This document shows positions 47,571 through 51,637 of a DNA stretch of 64,000 nucleotides, piece by piece. Below the pieces are notes generated by a model. It saw only the letters and a program-made list of their open reading frames with translations. It ran no database searches and was not told the DNA's origin. The position numbers were made by a program, and so were the translations under genes. The DNA is from Halopiger aswanensis (GTDB taxonomy: Archaea > Halobacteriota > Halobacteria > Halobacteriales > Natrialbaceae), in contig NZ_RAPO01000002.1 of assembly GCF_003610195.1 (NCBI RefSeq), forward strand, positions 1,116,001-1,180,000, given 5' to 3'. Numbering within the stretch: the stretch's first letter is position 1; each line of letters starts with the position of its first letter.

Positions 47571-48287
47571 ATGGACAAACAGGCGCTCCGCGAGCGCATC
47601 TGGGACGACCTCGAGGACAGCGGCGAGGCGCGGTTTCCGTTTCCGCCCCACGGACGCATTCCGAACTTCGCCGGCGCGGACGACGCCGCACAACGGCTCC
47701 AGGAGACCGACGCCTGGCAGGAGGCCGACGTCATCAAGGCCAACCCCGACGCACCGCAACTGCCCGTGCGACGGGCCGCGCTGCGGCAGGGGAAGACGGT
47801 CTACATGGCGGTCCCGCGGCTCCGCGACGAACAGTGTTTCCTCCGACTCGATCCCGACGAAGTCGAGGATATCGACCACGCGACGACGGTCGGCGGCTCC
47901 TCCGAGGTCGGCGTTCCGGTCCATCCGGCGGACGTCGATCCGATCGATCTGATCGTCTCCGGCAGCGTCGCGGTCACCGAGGCCGGCGCGCGGGTCGGCA
48001 AGGGCGAAGGATACAGCGACCTCGAGTTCGCGATCCTCGGCGAGTTCGACCTCGTGGACGACGCGACGGCCACCGCGACGACGGTCCACGAACTACAGGT
48101 CGTCGACGAGGACGTCCCGTTGTCGTCGCACGACGTGCCCATGGATCGGATCGTCACACCCGAGCGGACGCTCGAGACTGACGCGGCAGGGGGCGCGAAA
48201 CCGACGGCTCTCGAATGGTCGGAATTGAGCGAGGAGCGACTCGCCGAGATTCCGATCCTCGAGCGGCTCCAACCGTCGGCCGACTAA
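47571..48287 (+). CDS. 5-formyltetrahydrofolate cyclo-ligase family protein
   Basis: 238 residues. N-terminal MDKQALRERIWDDLEDSGEA and FPPHGRIPNFAGADDAAQRL with NPDAPQLPVRRAALRQGKTV (~62-81) mark the archaeal branch. The C-terminal ATP-phosphate loop is VGKGEGYSDLEFAIL (~142-156), equal to G-K-G-x-G-Y-x-D of MTHFS. Converts 5-formyl-THF to 5,10-methenyl-THF; haloarchaea use folate, and this window holds two formyl transferases (PurNH). The N-terminal half diverges from bacterial enzymes. Confidence 0.85.
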   Translation: MDKQALRERIWDDLEDSGEARFPFPPHGRIPNFAGADDAAQRLQETDAWQEADVIKANPDAPQLPVRRAALRQGKTVYMAVPRLRDEQCFLRLDPDEVEDIDHATTVGGSSEVGVPVHPADVDPIDLIVSGSVAVTEAGARVGKGEGYSDLEFAILGEFDLVDDATATATTVHELQVVDEDVPLSSHDVPMDRIVTPERTLETDAAGGAKPTALEWSELSEERLAEIPILERLQPSAD

Positions 48288-48690
48288 GAGCAACGGAAGC
48301 GCCGTCGCTCGCAAGGAGTGAAAGTTCCCGAGGCGCGGTGGCGCCTCGGATGCCAGAACCGCAAGGAGTGACCCAGGCCGGTGCAGCAGCCCGCGTCGGA
48401 ACGGTACGGCAATGGTGGGGGAAGGGTGCTGTGGTGGGATTGCTGGAAGTCACGGGAACAGGCGTGGGTGCCTACGGTGGAAGTGACCCGTCGACCTCCA
48501 CTCGTTCGTAGGGGGGCGACCTACTTGAACGGGGGCGACGGTATACCCTTCTTACGCCGAATTCCGCCGAATTTAACTCGGATTTAATCCGCCGATATCG
48601 ACCTCGAGACCGTTCACTACCGGCATCTAACTGCAACTGACGATTACGGCACGCAAAAACGGCAGTCGGCGACGACCGGCGGCGTGACGA
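48288..48690. other. Structured gene-free region; possible transposon end or ncRNA
   Basis: 403 nt without a credible gene. CCGAGGCGC-GGTG-GCGCCTCGG (48328-48349) is a perfect 9-bp stem with a 4-nt loop. CGCAAGGAGTGA occurs twice (48310-48321, 48360-48371). CGTTCGTAGG (48503-48512) pairs with CCTAC-TT-GAACG (48520-48531). In between, G-rich DNA with GAAGTCAC/GAAGTGAC repeats. The layout recalls the right end (guide-RNA region) of IS200/IS605-type elements lacking tnpB, but a host ncRNA is possible. From 48535 to 48690 the sequence is AT-richer and unstructured. Confidence 0.35.
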
Positions 48691-49032
48691 TCAGCCGAGC
48701 AGTTCCTCGGCGACGATCGCCGGCGTCAGCAACTTCGGGTCGACCGCGATATCGAGTTGCGCCTTGACGAACTCCGGGATCGAATCCTCGGTGTAGACGA
48801 CGGTTCGGATCTCGTCGGTGAGATCGCAGACGATCGGAATCGTCGTCGCCTGCCCGACGTCGGTCAGGACGTACAGATCGGCGTCGACGATCCCGGCCTC
48901 CTCGAGTTGCGGGCGCGAGATAACGCCGTCGAGGCGCGTGACGTCGACGCCTTCGTTCTCGAGGGCTTCGCCGAGGCCGTCGGCGTCGGGGCCGGCGACG
49001 ATCGCTCGCGTGGGCTGGGACTCCTCGCTCAT
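48691..49032 (-). CDS. Small pyrG/guaA-linked protein (resembles DUF7126)
   Basis: 113 residues. Rossmann-like start [20 protein letters not shown], then [20 protein letters not shown] and ELLG end. It looks like a TrkA-N-type half-domain without a full nucleotide motif. Proteins of this family are sometimes labelled CTP synthetase because of position, not activity. The ATGA overlap with the GMP synthase subunit makes it the third gene of a pyrG-guaA operon, so a regulatory or nucleotide-sensing role is plausible. Confidence 0.7.
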
Positions 49033-49946
49033 TCGTACTCGATCGTCGCGGGCGGTTTGTGGGTGACGTCGTAAACGACGCGCGCGACGTTCTCGTTGGT
49101 CCCCGTGATCCGCGACTGGATGCGCTGGAGGGTCTCCCAGTCGATTTCCTGTGCGCGGGCGGTCATCCCGTCGCGGGACTCGACCGAGCGGACGGAGACG
49201 ACCCAGCCGTGCACGCGGTTGTCGCCCTTAACGCCCGTCGCCTTGCCGATGACCGCCGCGAGAGCCTGCCACGGCTCGTACTCCTCGAGTTCCTCCTCGA
49301 CGACGTGGTTGGCCTCGCGGGCGACCTCGAGTTTCTCCTCGGTGACTTCCCCGATAACCCGAACGGCGAGGCCGGGGCCGGGGAACGGCATTCGCTCGGC
49401 GACGATCTCCTCTAAGCCGAGGTGGCGTGCGACCTCGCGGACTTCGTCCTTGTAGAGGTCGCGAACGGGTTCGACGATCCCCTCGAAGTCGACGACGTCG
49501 GGGAGGCCGCCGACGTTGTGGTGGGACTTGATCCCGCCCTCGCTCTCGATGCGGTCGGGGTAGATCGTCCCCTGCACGAGGTAGTCGGCGTCGGCGTCTT
49601 TGGCCTCGCGCTCGAACTCGCGGATGAACTGCTCGCCGATGATCTCGCGCTTTTCCTCGGGGTCGGTGACGCCCTCGAGCGCCTCGAGGAACCGATCCTT
49701 GGCGTCGACGATCCGCAGCGACTCCATGTAGTCGAAGGTCTCGCGGATCTGGTCGGTCTCGCCCTTGCGCATCAGACCGGTGTCGACGTACACGGGCGTC
49801 AGGCGGTCGCCGATGGCCTCGTAGGCCAGGGCGGCCGCGACCGAGGAGTCGACCCCGCCCGAAAGGGCGATGACGGCGTTTTCGTCGCCGATTTCGTCTT
49901 CGATCTCTGCGACTGCTTCCGGAACGAACGTGTCTGTGTCTACCAT
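49029..49946 (-). CDS. guaAB: GMP synthase, ATP-pyrophosphatase subunit
   Basis: 305 residues. PP-loop [18 protein letters not shown] (~29-46), [15 protein letters not shown] (~58), [20 protein letters not shown] (~130s), [10 protein letters not shown] and a C-terminal dimerisation part ending [19 protein letters not shown]. Archaeal type: the glutaminase subunit is a separate gene, not in this window. Amidates XMP to GMP. One-base overlap with pyrG and 4-base overlap with the following gene. Confidence 0.95.
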
Positions 49947-51637
49947 CAGTGGGTGACCTCCGTTTCGGCGTCGGTGTCCGCGTCGGTCTCGCTTTCAGCC
50001 GCTACTCCCTCGTCGCCGCGCTGCTCGAGCACGGACTCGACGAGGCCGACGAACGGCGGGCTCGGCTGGCCGGGCCGGGACTTGTACTCGGGGTGGAACT
50101 GCGTCCCGAAGAAGAACGGATGATCCTCGTGCTCGAGGATCTCCATCCGGTTGCCCGCGGTGCCCGAGAACGTCAGCGGTTCGTCCTCGAACTGGTCGAA
50201 GTACTCGGGGTTGACCTCGTAGCGGTGGCGGTGTCGTTCCGAGCAGGACGTGTCGCCGTACAGCTCGTAGGCCAGCGTCTCGGGTTCGATGACGGTCGTG
50301 TGCTCGCCGAGCCGCATCGTCCCGCCCATATCTTCGACCTCGTACTGCTCGGGCAGGATGTCGATGACCGGGTGGGGCGTCTCCTCGTCCATCTCCGCCG
50401 AGTGGGCGCCCTCGAGCCCGAGGACGTTGCGCGCGTACTCGACGACGGCCATCTGGAAGCCCAGACAGAGTCCGAGGAAGGGGACGTCGTTCTCGCGGGC
50501 GTACTGGACCGCGCGGATCTTGCCCTCGGTGCCGCGCATGCCGAAACCGCCGGGGACGATGATCCCGTCGACATCGTCGAGTTGGTCGTCGTACTCGTCG
50601 GCCATCCCGTCGGCGTGGACCCAGTGGACGTTGACGTCGACGCCGAGTTCGAAGCCGGCGTGTTTCAGCGACTCGTGGATCGACATGTACGCGTCCTCTA
50701 AGTCGTACTTGCCGACCAACGCGATGTCGACCTCGGCCGTCTGGTCGGTGGTGACGATCTCGCGCCACTCGTTGGCGCGCTCACCCTCGGGCAGGGCCTC
50801 GTCGGCCAGCCCGAAGTGCTCTAAGACGTACTGGTCGAGTCCCTCTTCCTCGACCATCAGCGGGACGTGGTAGACGTCCTCGACGTCCGGGTTCGAGAAG
50901 ACGGCGTCGGTGGGAATGTCACAGAACAGCGCGATCTTCTCCTTGGTCTCGGGATCGAGGCGGTCCTCGCAGCGGCCGACGATGATGTCGGGCTGGAGGC
51001 CGATCGAGCGCACTTCCTTGACCGAGTGCTGGGTCGGCTTGGTCTTTTGCTCGCCGTTCTTCGAGTACGGGACGAGCGTCACGTGCGTGAAGAGAACGTT
51101 CTCCTCCGGTTCCTCGTGGGCGAACTGGCGCAGCGCCTCGAGGTAGGGCATCCCCTCGATGTCCCCGACGGTGCCGCCGACCTCGACGATACAGACGTCG
51201 GTGCCTTCTGCCGCCTCCCGAATGCGGCGCTTGATGTCGTCGGTGATGTGGGGAATGATCTGGACGGTCTTGCCCAGGTAGTCGCCGGCACGCTCCTTCT
51301 CGATGACGTGCTGGTACGTTTTCCCCGTGGTGATGTTGTGATCCGAGGTCATGTCGACGTCGAGGAACCGCTCGTAGTTCCCCAGGTCGAGGTCGACCTC
51401 GCCGCCGTCCTTGAGGACGTACACCTCCCCGTGCTGGTAGGGGTTCATCGTCCCCGCGTCGACGTTCAGGTACGGGTCGATCTTCACGGCGGTCACGTCG
51501 AAGCCGGCGTTTTTCAGGAGTCGGCCGGTGCTCGCGGCTGTAATCCCCTTGCCGAGTCCCGACATGACGCCGCCGGTGACGAAGATGAACTTGTTCCCCA
51601 GTGTGGGGTCATAATCAGTGTCCGATTCCGTCGGCAT
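49946..51637 (-). CDS. pyrG: CTP synthase
   Basis: 563 residues. N-terminal synthetase domain with [20 protein letters not shown] (P-loop, ~11-30), [20 protein letters not shown] and [21 protein letters not shown]-terminal class I glutaminase: [18 protein letters not shown] (Cys ~395) and [17 protein letters not shown] (His/Glu ~525). Makes CTP from UTP, ATP and glutamine. First gene of an overlapping pyrG-guaA-DUF operon. Acidic C-terminal tail ([13 protein letters not shown]). Confidence 0.97.

Follow-up and report, generated by a model that had tools for sequence, protein, structure and literature searches.

Introduction

Archaeal small RNAs whose conservation exceeds a single genus and whose structure is proven by evolutionary changes are, to our knowledge, few. 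In bacteria, the CCUCC-loop RNAs of alphaproteobacteria, Yfr1 of cyanobacteria and the CsrB-type decoys all present short repeated single-stranded motifs between hairpins. Two archaeal sRNAs offer closer points of comparison. sRNA132 of Haloferax volcanii is a stand-alone intergenic RNA with basal promoter elements and an alignment-predicted fold; it is flanked by the same genes in 11 of 12 species and is reported only in the genus Haloferax; the same source gives ~72% of H. volcanii transcripts as leaderless (PMC6560208). As described in a review, sRNA154 of Methanosarcina mazei is likewise a conserved sRNA, whose stable stem-loops meet mRNAs (PMC5867862).

Here we describe a locus of Halopiger aswanensis, contained in a stretch of 64,000 nucleotides that we refer to as the window, in which the element at 48318-48501 on the minus strand is very probably a real non-coding RNA, judging from its sequence and that of its relatives. 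The best explanation overall, to which we would give an even chance of being right, is a stand-alone structured small RNA of ~184 nt that has its own promoter and acts in trans. Likened by description to sRNA132, it is similarly stand-alone and intergenic, with promoter-like elements, an alignment-based fold and kept gene neighbours; unlike the Haloferax-only sRNA132, its motif is found in 13 named genera of Natrialbaceae and it retains a long unpaired C-rich stretch. With sRNA154, it shares conservation and stable stem-loops, whereas lineage and structure differ, and target mRNAs are known for sRNA154 (PMC5867862) and none for the Natrialbaceae RNA. The short repeated motifs shown between hairpins also recall the CCUCC-loop RNAs, Yfr1 and the CsrB-type decoys, with no homology implied; in contrast to these, the motif is CCCACC/GCACC and the host is an archaeon.

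By kind, the RNA is a further haloarchaeal small RNA, and Rfam 15 contains no entry for the family; a literature search, with subscription journals mostly outside its coverage, returned nothing on this locus. Its interest lies in the combination of compensatory changes, a fixed promoter-like box and one genomic place across most of one family. As carriers include cultured species (Natrinema, Natrialba, Natronorubrum), its function is directly testable.

Genomic context and distribution in Natrialbaceae

The predicted RNA gene (48318-48501, minus strand; ~184 nt, with a putative 5′ end at ~48501 and 3′ end at ~48320) is situated downstream of pyrG-guaA-DUF7126 and convergent to a folate gene. 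Pfam assignments place pyrG (49946-51637) before guaA (49029-49946), itself upstream of the gene encoding a DUF7126 protein (48691-49032, minus strand; PF23443, E 3.1e-46), which is the upstream neighbour on the strand of the RNA. On the other side, the convergent neighbour encodes 5-formyltetrahydrofolate cyclo-ligase (47571-48287, plus strand; PF01812, E 8e-26). DUF7126 (PF23443) adjoins guaA in many loci across several haloarchaeal families, and this adjacency suggests a role tied to GMP synthase.

Of 48 Natrialbaceae loci, 43 have the folate gene downstream in convergent orientation, and 41 have DUF7126 upstream on the strand of the RNA. Judged by motif positions, most loci without an expected neighbour simply end too early; in L167 the folate gene is missing, and in L144, from the contig of L010, DUF7126 is missing despite coverage of several kb. 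The recurrent position downstream of DUF7126 and opposite the folate gene would also agree with a cis element, be it the 3′ UTR or terminator region of an operon of guaA and DUF7126, or an RNA antisense to the mRNA of the folate gene at its 3′ end. We consider this unlikely, since the RNA has its own promoter-like spacing (see below), genomes with the diverged copies L101 and L107-L109 have the folate gene on a different contig, and DUF7126 is absent within ~4 kb in L144 and within 1.5 kb in L008 and L010, where the conserved blocks upstream of the RNA are nevertheless still present. The next gene being convergent in those 43 of 48 loci, the element is no leader of a downstream gene there, and a riboswitch or other cis-regulatory leader was rejected on the same ground.

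BLAST against 100 genomes matched 53 of the 61 genomes of the window's family (f1, own genome included), each of them once, and none of the 39 genomes from other families. Model R1, run on 194 genomes of the class, matched 51, comprising 50 of family f1 and a single 47-nt match elsewhere (E 0.062); the model match in G145 (E 0.062, 0.198) is ~20 kb from DUF7126 and was taken as chance. Among the eight f1 genomes without a BLAST match, four carry a diverged homologue behind DUF7126, as revealed by an nhmmer profile over 40 loci (L101, E 1.1e-13; L107-L109, E 2.5e-5 to 3.1e-3). A wider model, R2, matched only G027 (1.4e-4) and G145 among 30 genomes; it did not detect the diverged copies in G010, G037 and G055, which rest on nhmmer over the 40 loci, on position and on box spacing. 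Of the four diverged homologues, R2 thus recovers L101 alone, and it gave no match in the other four of the eight f1 genomes, two of genus g7 and two of g4. Behind DUF7126, the two g7 genomes have a sequence that looks coding by eye, and the two g4 assemblies are incomplete.

An exact search of a genome collection with an internal motif gave 52 named matches, 48 in Natrialbaceae and four in bacteria, the latter taken as chance. The 48 records, assigned to the family by record title or by the taxonomy of the genus, bear 13 genus names, including Natrinema, Natrialba, Natronococcus, Natronorubrum, Halopiger, Halobiforma, Halostagnicola, Halovivax and Natrarchaeobius. Most likely, the element is a cytosine-rich folded RNA that occurs family-wide at one genomic place.

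This distribution bears on the original prediction, which had read the locus as a possible right end of an IS200/IS605-type element devoid of tnpB and encoding an orphan guide RNA (omega-RNA). Hairpins do lie within the intergenic region, as that reading has it, but we give it practically no credence: the 53 matching genomes have one match each, with neither several copies nor variable sites of the kind expected from mobility, the locus is fixed with the same neighbours in most cases, and the RNA is most likely on the opposite strand with its own promoter. A DNA search of the genome with the 313 bases at 48288-48600 returned a single match, and a stretch that is single-copy in its own genome has no tnpB copy sharing it as a right end. 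Exact-pattern search of viral contigs for the internal motif likewise yielded 0 matches. The same prediction had offered a host structured RNA as its alternative, and this alternative is supported. The prediction was to be abandoned if there were no other copies, no transcript and no covariation in relatives; relatives do display covariation.

RNA structure and covariation

From 5′ to 3′ on the minus strand, the predicted RNA is composed of helix H1, a linker, helix H2 enclosing hairpin H3, and hairpin H4, and folded alone it takes this same structure as both its MFE and its centroid. H1, at the 5′ end (48444-48500), pairs 48487-48500 with 48444-48456 through 13 pairs and has one bulged G and a variable cap. 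The C-rich linker GCAAUCCCACCACAGCACCCUUCCCCCACCAU that follows (48412-48443, 32 nt) is unpaired in the MFE and centroid folds and is the most conserved of the unpaired parts in the alignment, which makes it a candidate interaction site. H2 (48351-48411) is built from 48407-48411 with 48351-48355 and from 48401-48404 with 48359-48362, around H3 (48389-48397 with 48370-48378; loop UGCUGCACCG), whose pairs show two-sided changes. H4 and a T-rich stretch (48321-48349) form an intrinsic-terminator-like 3′ end. A further pairing of GCAA with UUGC across the linker was discarded, as it is not kept in L038, L039 and others. The locus had been said to hold no gene, which is true for proteins: the C-run of the linker differs in length between relatives, which breaks any frame, so that the linker is not a reading frame and a protein-coding stretch was rejected.

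Covariation was assessed in two alignments. In the MAFFT alignment A2 (28 sequences, H4 excluded), 94.5% of cells pair and two-sided changes affect 10 of 35 pairs. Shuffles average 3.2 such pairs, none of the 500 reaching as many as the alignment, and slid controls give 1-6. The model-fitted alignment A3 (62 sequences), which leans towards structure, has such changes in 21 of the 35 pairs. H3 carries most of the signal, with 8 of its 9 pairs changing on both sides in A2 and all 9 in A3; support for H2 is weaker. H1 is nearly invariant, displaying little covariation and no clear strand bias: one of its pairs, which read on the plus strand would mismatch as A.C, is a G-U on the minus strand in 62 of 62 sequences, and the other 12 pairs give A.C over G-U by 11 to 2.

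The two strong hairpins that had first drawn attention to the locus are both present in the window. The one at 48328-48349 (CCGAGGCGC/GCGCCTCGG), which corresponds to H4, is kept in relatives and is real, with at least two Watson-Crick types in 8 of its 9 pairs across 53 loci. The other, at 48503-48531, is not conserved: the alignment keeps only its GTTNAAGT arm, which resembles a promoter box, and leaves the partner arm free. It spans the core promoter and is probably a chance pairing. A 12-bp direct repeat, CGCAAGGAGTGA at 48310 and 48360, is exact in the window, but the pair is lost even in the nearest relative (locus L002), where the second copy is present and the first absent.

Comparison with known families gave no counterpart. 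The covariance search proposed for the locus, using Rfam 15 at gathering score, produced 0 matches in the window and 0 in eight related loci, and a search of 48200-48700 at E up to 10 yielded one chance-level match (E 4.5). RNase P RNA was rejected as an identity, RF00373 matching elsewhere in the genome (C3:108734-109249). In the own genome assembly (G000), Rfam models found neither 16S nor 23S rRNA, the molecules to which a guide RNA for rRNA modification (C/D or H/ACA type) would be complementary; this assembly may lack rRNA operons.

Strand of the RNA

The minus strand is the most likely one for the RNA; computation supports it less strongly than it does the RNA fold, the covariation, the promoter-like spacing and the conservation. 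Over the stretch initially singled out, fold stability relative to shuffles reaches z -3.11 on the minus strand and z -0.21 on the plus; for the RNA part alone, the values are -2.53 and +0.52. The H4 stem was found in 51 of 53 loci, among which TTT occurs within 20 nt past the stem in 30 and TTTT in 13, as compared to 0 and 0 in the mirror test for the plus strand on the same 51 loci; the window's own copy has TTT after H4. In the pairs common to the consensus folds of both strands (28 loci), G-U outnumbers A.C by 56 to 17, as it does in H4 (42 to 9) and H3 (39 to 18) over 53 loci. Across all five segments, counting the pairs that are Watson-Crick in the window copy, the ratio is 105 to 65 (53 loci), with the opposite lean in H1 (2 to 11) and in the inner part of H2, H2b (3 to 13), which runs counter to the minus-strand bias.

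A G-rich RNA on the plus strand, as the original prediction had assumed, draws on that lean of H1 and H2b, on a lower RNAalifold energy (-136.5, versus -122.3 for the minus strand) and on its own consensus fold, which holds 347 plus-only G-U cells against 58. Each strand's consensus fold favours itself, however, that of the minus strand by 172 to 34, and 296 of the 347 plus-only cells sit in three long-range helices without a further Watson-Crick pair type, whereas the covarying H3 and H4 lean to the minus strand. As the plus strand is in addition not more stable than its shuffles, and as the T runs and the box spacing fit the minus strand only, we regard a plus-strand RNA as very unlikely; the predicted structure was real, and the strand on which it was read was most likely the wrong one.

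Putative promoter and upstream region

Upstream of H1 on the minus strand, a putative core promoter (48521-48543) comprises a TACCGTC block (48537-48543) and the TATA-like GTTCAAGTAG (48521-48530), whose consensus over the loci is GTTNAAGTRG; a weak TA at about -10 (48509-48510) precedes H1 by ~10 nt. H1 begins 29 nt after the TTNAA box in 52 of 53 loci and 30 nt after it in the remaining one, most of the spacer being variable; the distance is again 29 nt in the diverged homologues L101 and L107-L109. Such fixed spacing looks like that of a TATA-like box with a fixed start site, predicted at ~48501. Of the features of a haloarchaeal stand-alone sRNA, three are present here: a promoter-like sequence at a fixed 29 nt, a conserved RNA fold and an untranslated sequence.

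Conservation extends to ~48617, beyond which the sequence diverges. Column conservation over 53 loci delimits a UAS-like region on the minus strand (48551-48617), made up of a TNAAC..TCT block (48608-48617), two TNAA/TTAA blocks ~11 bp apart (48571-48589), an AATTCG block (48557-48564) and a TAAG block (48551-48554). The conserved blocks upstream of H1 do not behave like RNA, and the region may have a regulatory role. Their spacing of ~11 bp would fit an element acting at the DNA level, as a protein-binding or replication site and not as an RNA, but the compensatory changes and the terminator asymmetry are RNA signatures, and we hold this reading to be exceedingly improbable.

Elsewhere in the window, GTTNAAGTR was rejected as a promoter at its two other sites, both inside long reading frames. 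A general promoter of stable RNAs was also rejected, there being no similar box near the start of RNase P RNA. In L075 (G115), a tandem second copy of the promoter and the 5′ arm of H1 was seen (positions 1348 and 1489), joined by CTGTCTCTTATACAC, which we take to be a Nextera adapter, plus N; this copy is probably an assembly artefact.

Proposed mode of action

Transcription of the RNA, its exact ends, its targets and its mechanism are what we infer in the following model. The RNA would be transcribed leftward from its own conserved promoter, starting at ~48501, and would end at the H4 hairpin, with stable 5′ and 3′ hairpins protecting it. The C-rich parts, namely the 32-nt linker and the loops (CCCACC and GCACC motifs), would be held single-stranded, allowing these exposed parts to base-pair with G-rich mRNA stretches and so alter translation or stability; the RNA itself would be under the control of whatever binds the conserved upstream blocks.

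Given the predicted stability of the RNA, its C-rich loops and its one long C-rich stretch, unpaired and highly conserved, something would be expected to bind that stretch; either G-rich mRNA sites or a C-rich-RNA-binding protein would fit. To a trans-acting base-pairing regulator we assign a probability a little short of even. Base-pairing is preferred because it is the mode described for archaeal sRNAs in PMC5867862 and PMC6560208, with a protein decoy close behind. If transcripts are mostly leaderless, as the latter source indicates for H. volcanii, masking of Shine-Dalgarno sequences could reach few mRNAs. Searched in the own genome, the complement of 18 linker nucleotides finds no second site with up to 2 mismatches; with 3 mismatches it finds 3 sites and the reversed control 2. 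This makes one long mRNA target unlikely but does not speak against short seeds. The linker exceeds in both length and conservation what a short seed requires, and this would suit protein binding too.

Alternatively, a protein with affinity for single-stranded C-rich RNA could use the RNA as a platform or be caught by it as a decoy, the CCCACC/GCACC copies in linker and loops scaffolding or titrating that protein, as CsrB does with CsrA. We see this protein-binding or titrating role as possible and distinctly less probable than not. Across 62 homologues, CACC occurs 7.1 times per homologue versus 3.9 in dinucleotide shuffles and CCCACC 2.9 versus 0.7, counted over a stretch that includes ~31 nt of promoter and with part of the excess coming from one conserved linker. 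The conservation of the linker, far exceeding that of a seed, points the same way, as do C-rich candidates that lie behind a similar promoter in other families despite differing sequences, the one in f5 with many CCCACC. The partner protein is nevertheless hypothetical, and some homologues do not have the motif in every loop.

Similar promoters and candidate RNAs in other families

When up to 2 mismatches are allowed, the promoter pattern ACSGTCGSCCCCGTTSAAGTR occurs in 80 of 292 genomes, the majority from f1; outside f1 it is matched exactly in two f17 genomes (G076, G220). Twelve places outside f1 were examined: five resemble RNA starts (L184-L186 in f17; L205 and L212 in f5), three precede reading frames (L197, L206, L207) and four are unlike or lie within long frames (L183, L188, L198, L211). 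A promoter-like match in f8 (L112, E 0.21) is only suggestive.

The f17 loci (L186/L213 in G220, L185/L215 in G076, L184 in G209, and others) have a different C-rich sequence, with a hairpin ~29 nt past TTGAAG. More than one Watson-Crick type is found in 12 of 59 pairs (15 sequences), and this candidate likely has RNA structure. Pair counts do not settle its strand: G-U to A.C stands at 60 to 25 in the fold of the RNA strand and at 41 to 165 in that of the other strand, which has the lower energy, and at 26 to 18 in the pairs common to both folds. The promoter is on the same strand as DUF7126 and ~0.45 and 1.05 kb downstream of it in L184 and L185, respectively; the L186 locus yielded no DUF7126. 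As for f5, the promoter of L205 (G206) is on the same strand, ~540 nt after guaA-DUF7126, and precedes a C-rich stretch full of CCCACC; the candidate C-rich RNAs of this family (L205 1500-1790 in G206; L212 1500-1790 in G159) are single sequences.

We tentatively put forward, as an idea more doubtful than probable, that the element represents, within Natrialbaceae, an ancient haloarchaeal RNA gene retained behind guaA-DUF7126, in which the promoter (paired TTNAA blocks, ACSGTCGSCCCC, GTTSAAGTR), the start-site hairpin and exposed CCCACC-type stretches would persist across families as the RNA sequence is replaced. Orthology of the RNAs across f1, f17 and f5 is a proposal. If this is true, such an RNA would work by displaying a short motif, be it as a general decoy or as an anti-G-rich regulator, and would be coupled to a dedicated transcription factor; and if the units of the other families are orthologues, this would be an RNA whose promoter and short-motif display outlast its sequence.

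By eye, the same promoter type also precedes exported-protein-like frames (L093, 1400-1325, minus strand; L197 and L206, around 1500). The promoter is thus not exclusive to RNAs, and these three loci hint at a distinct haloarchaeal promoter class or regulon.
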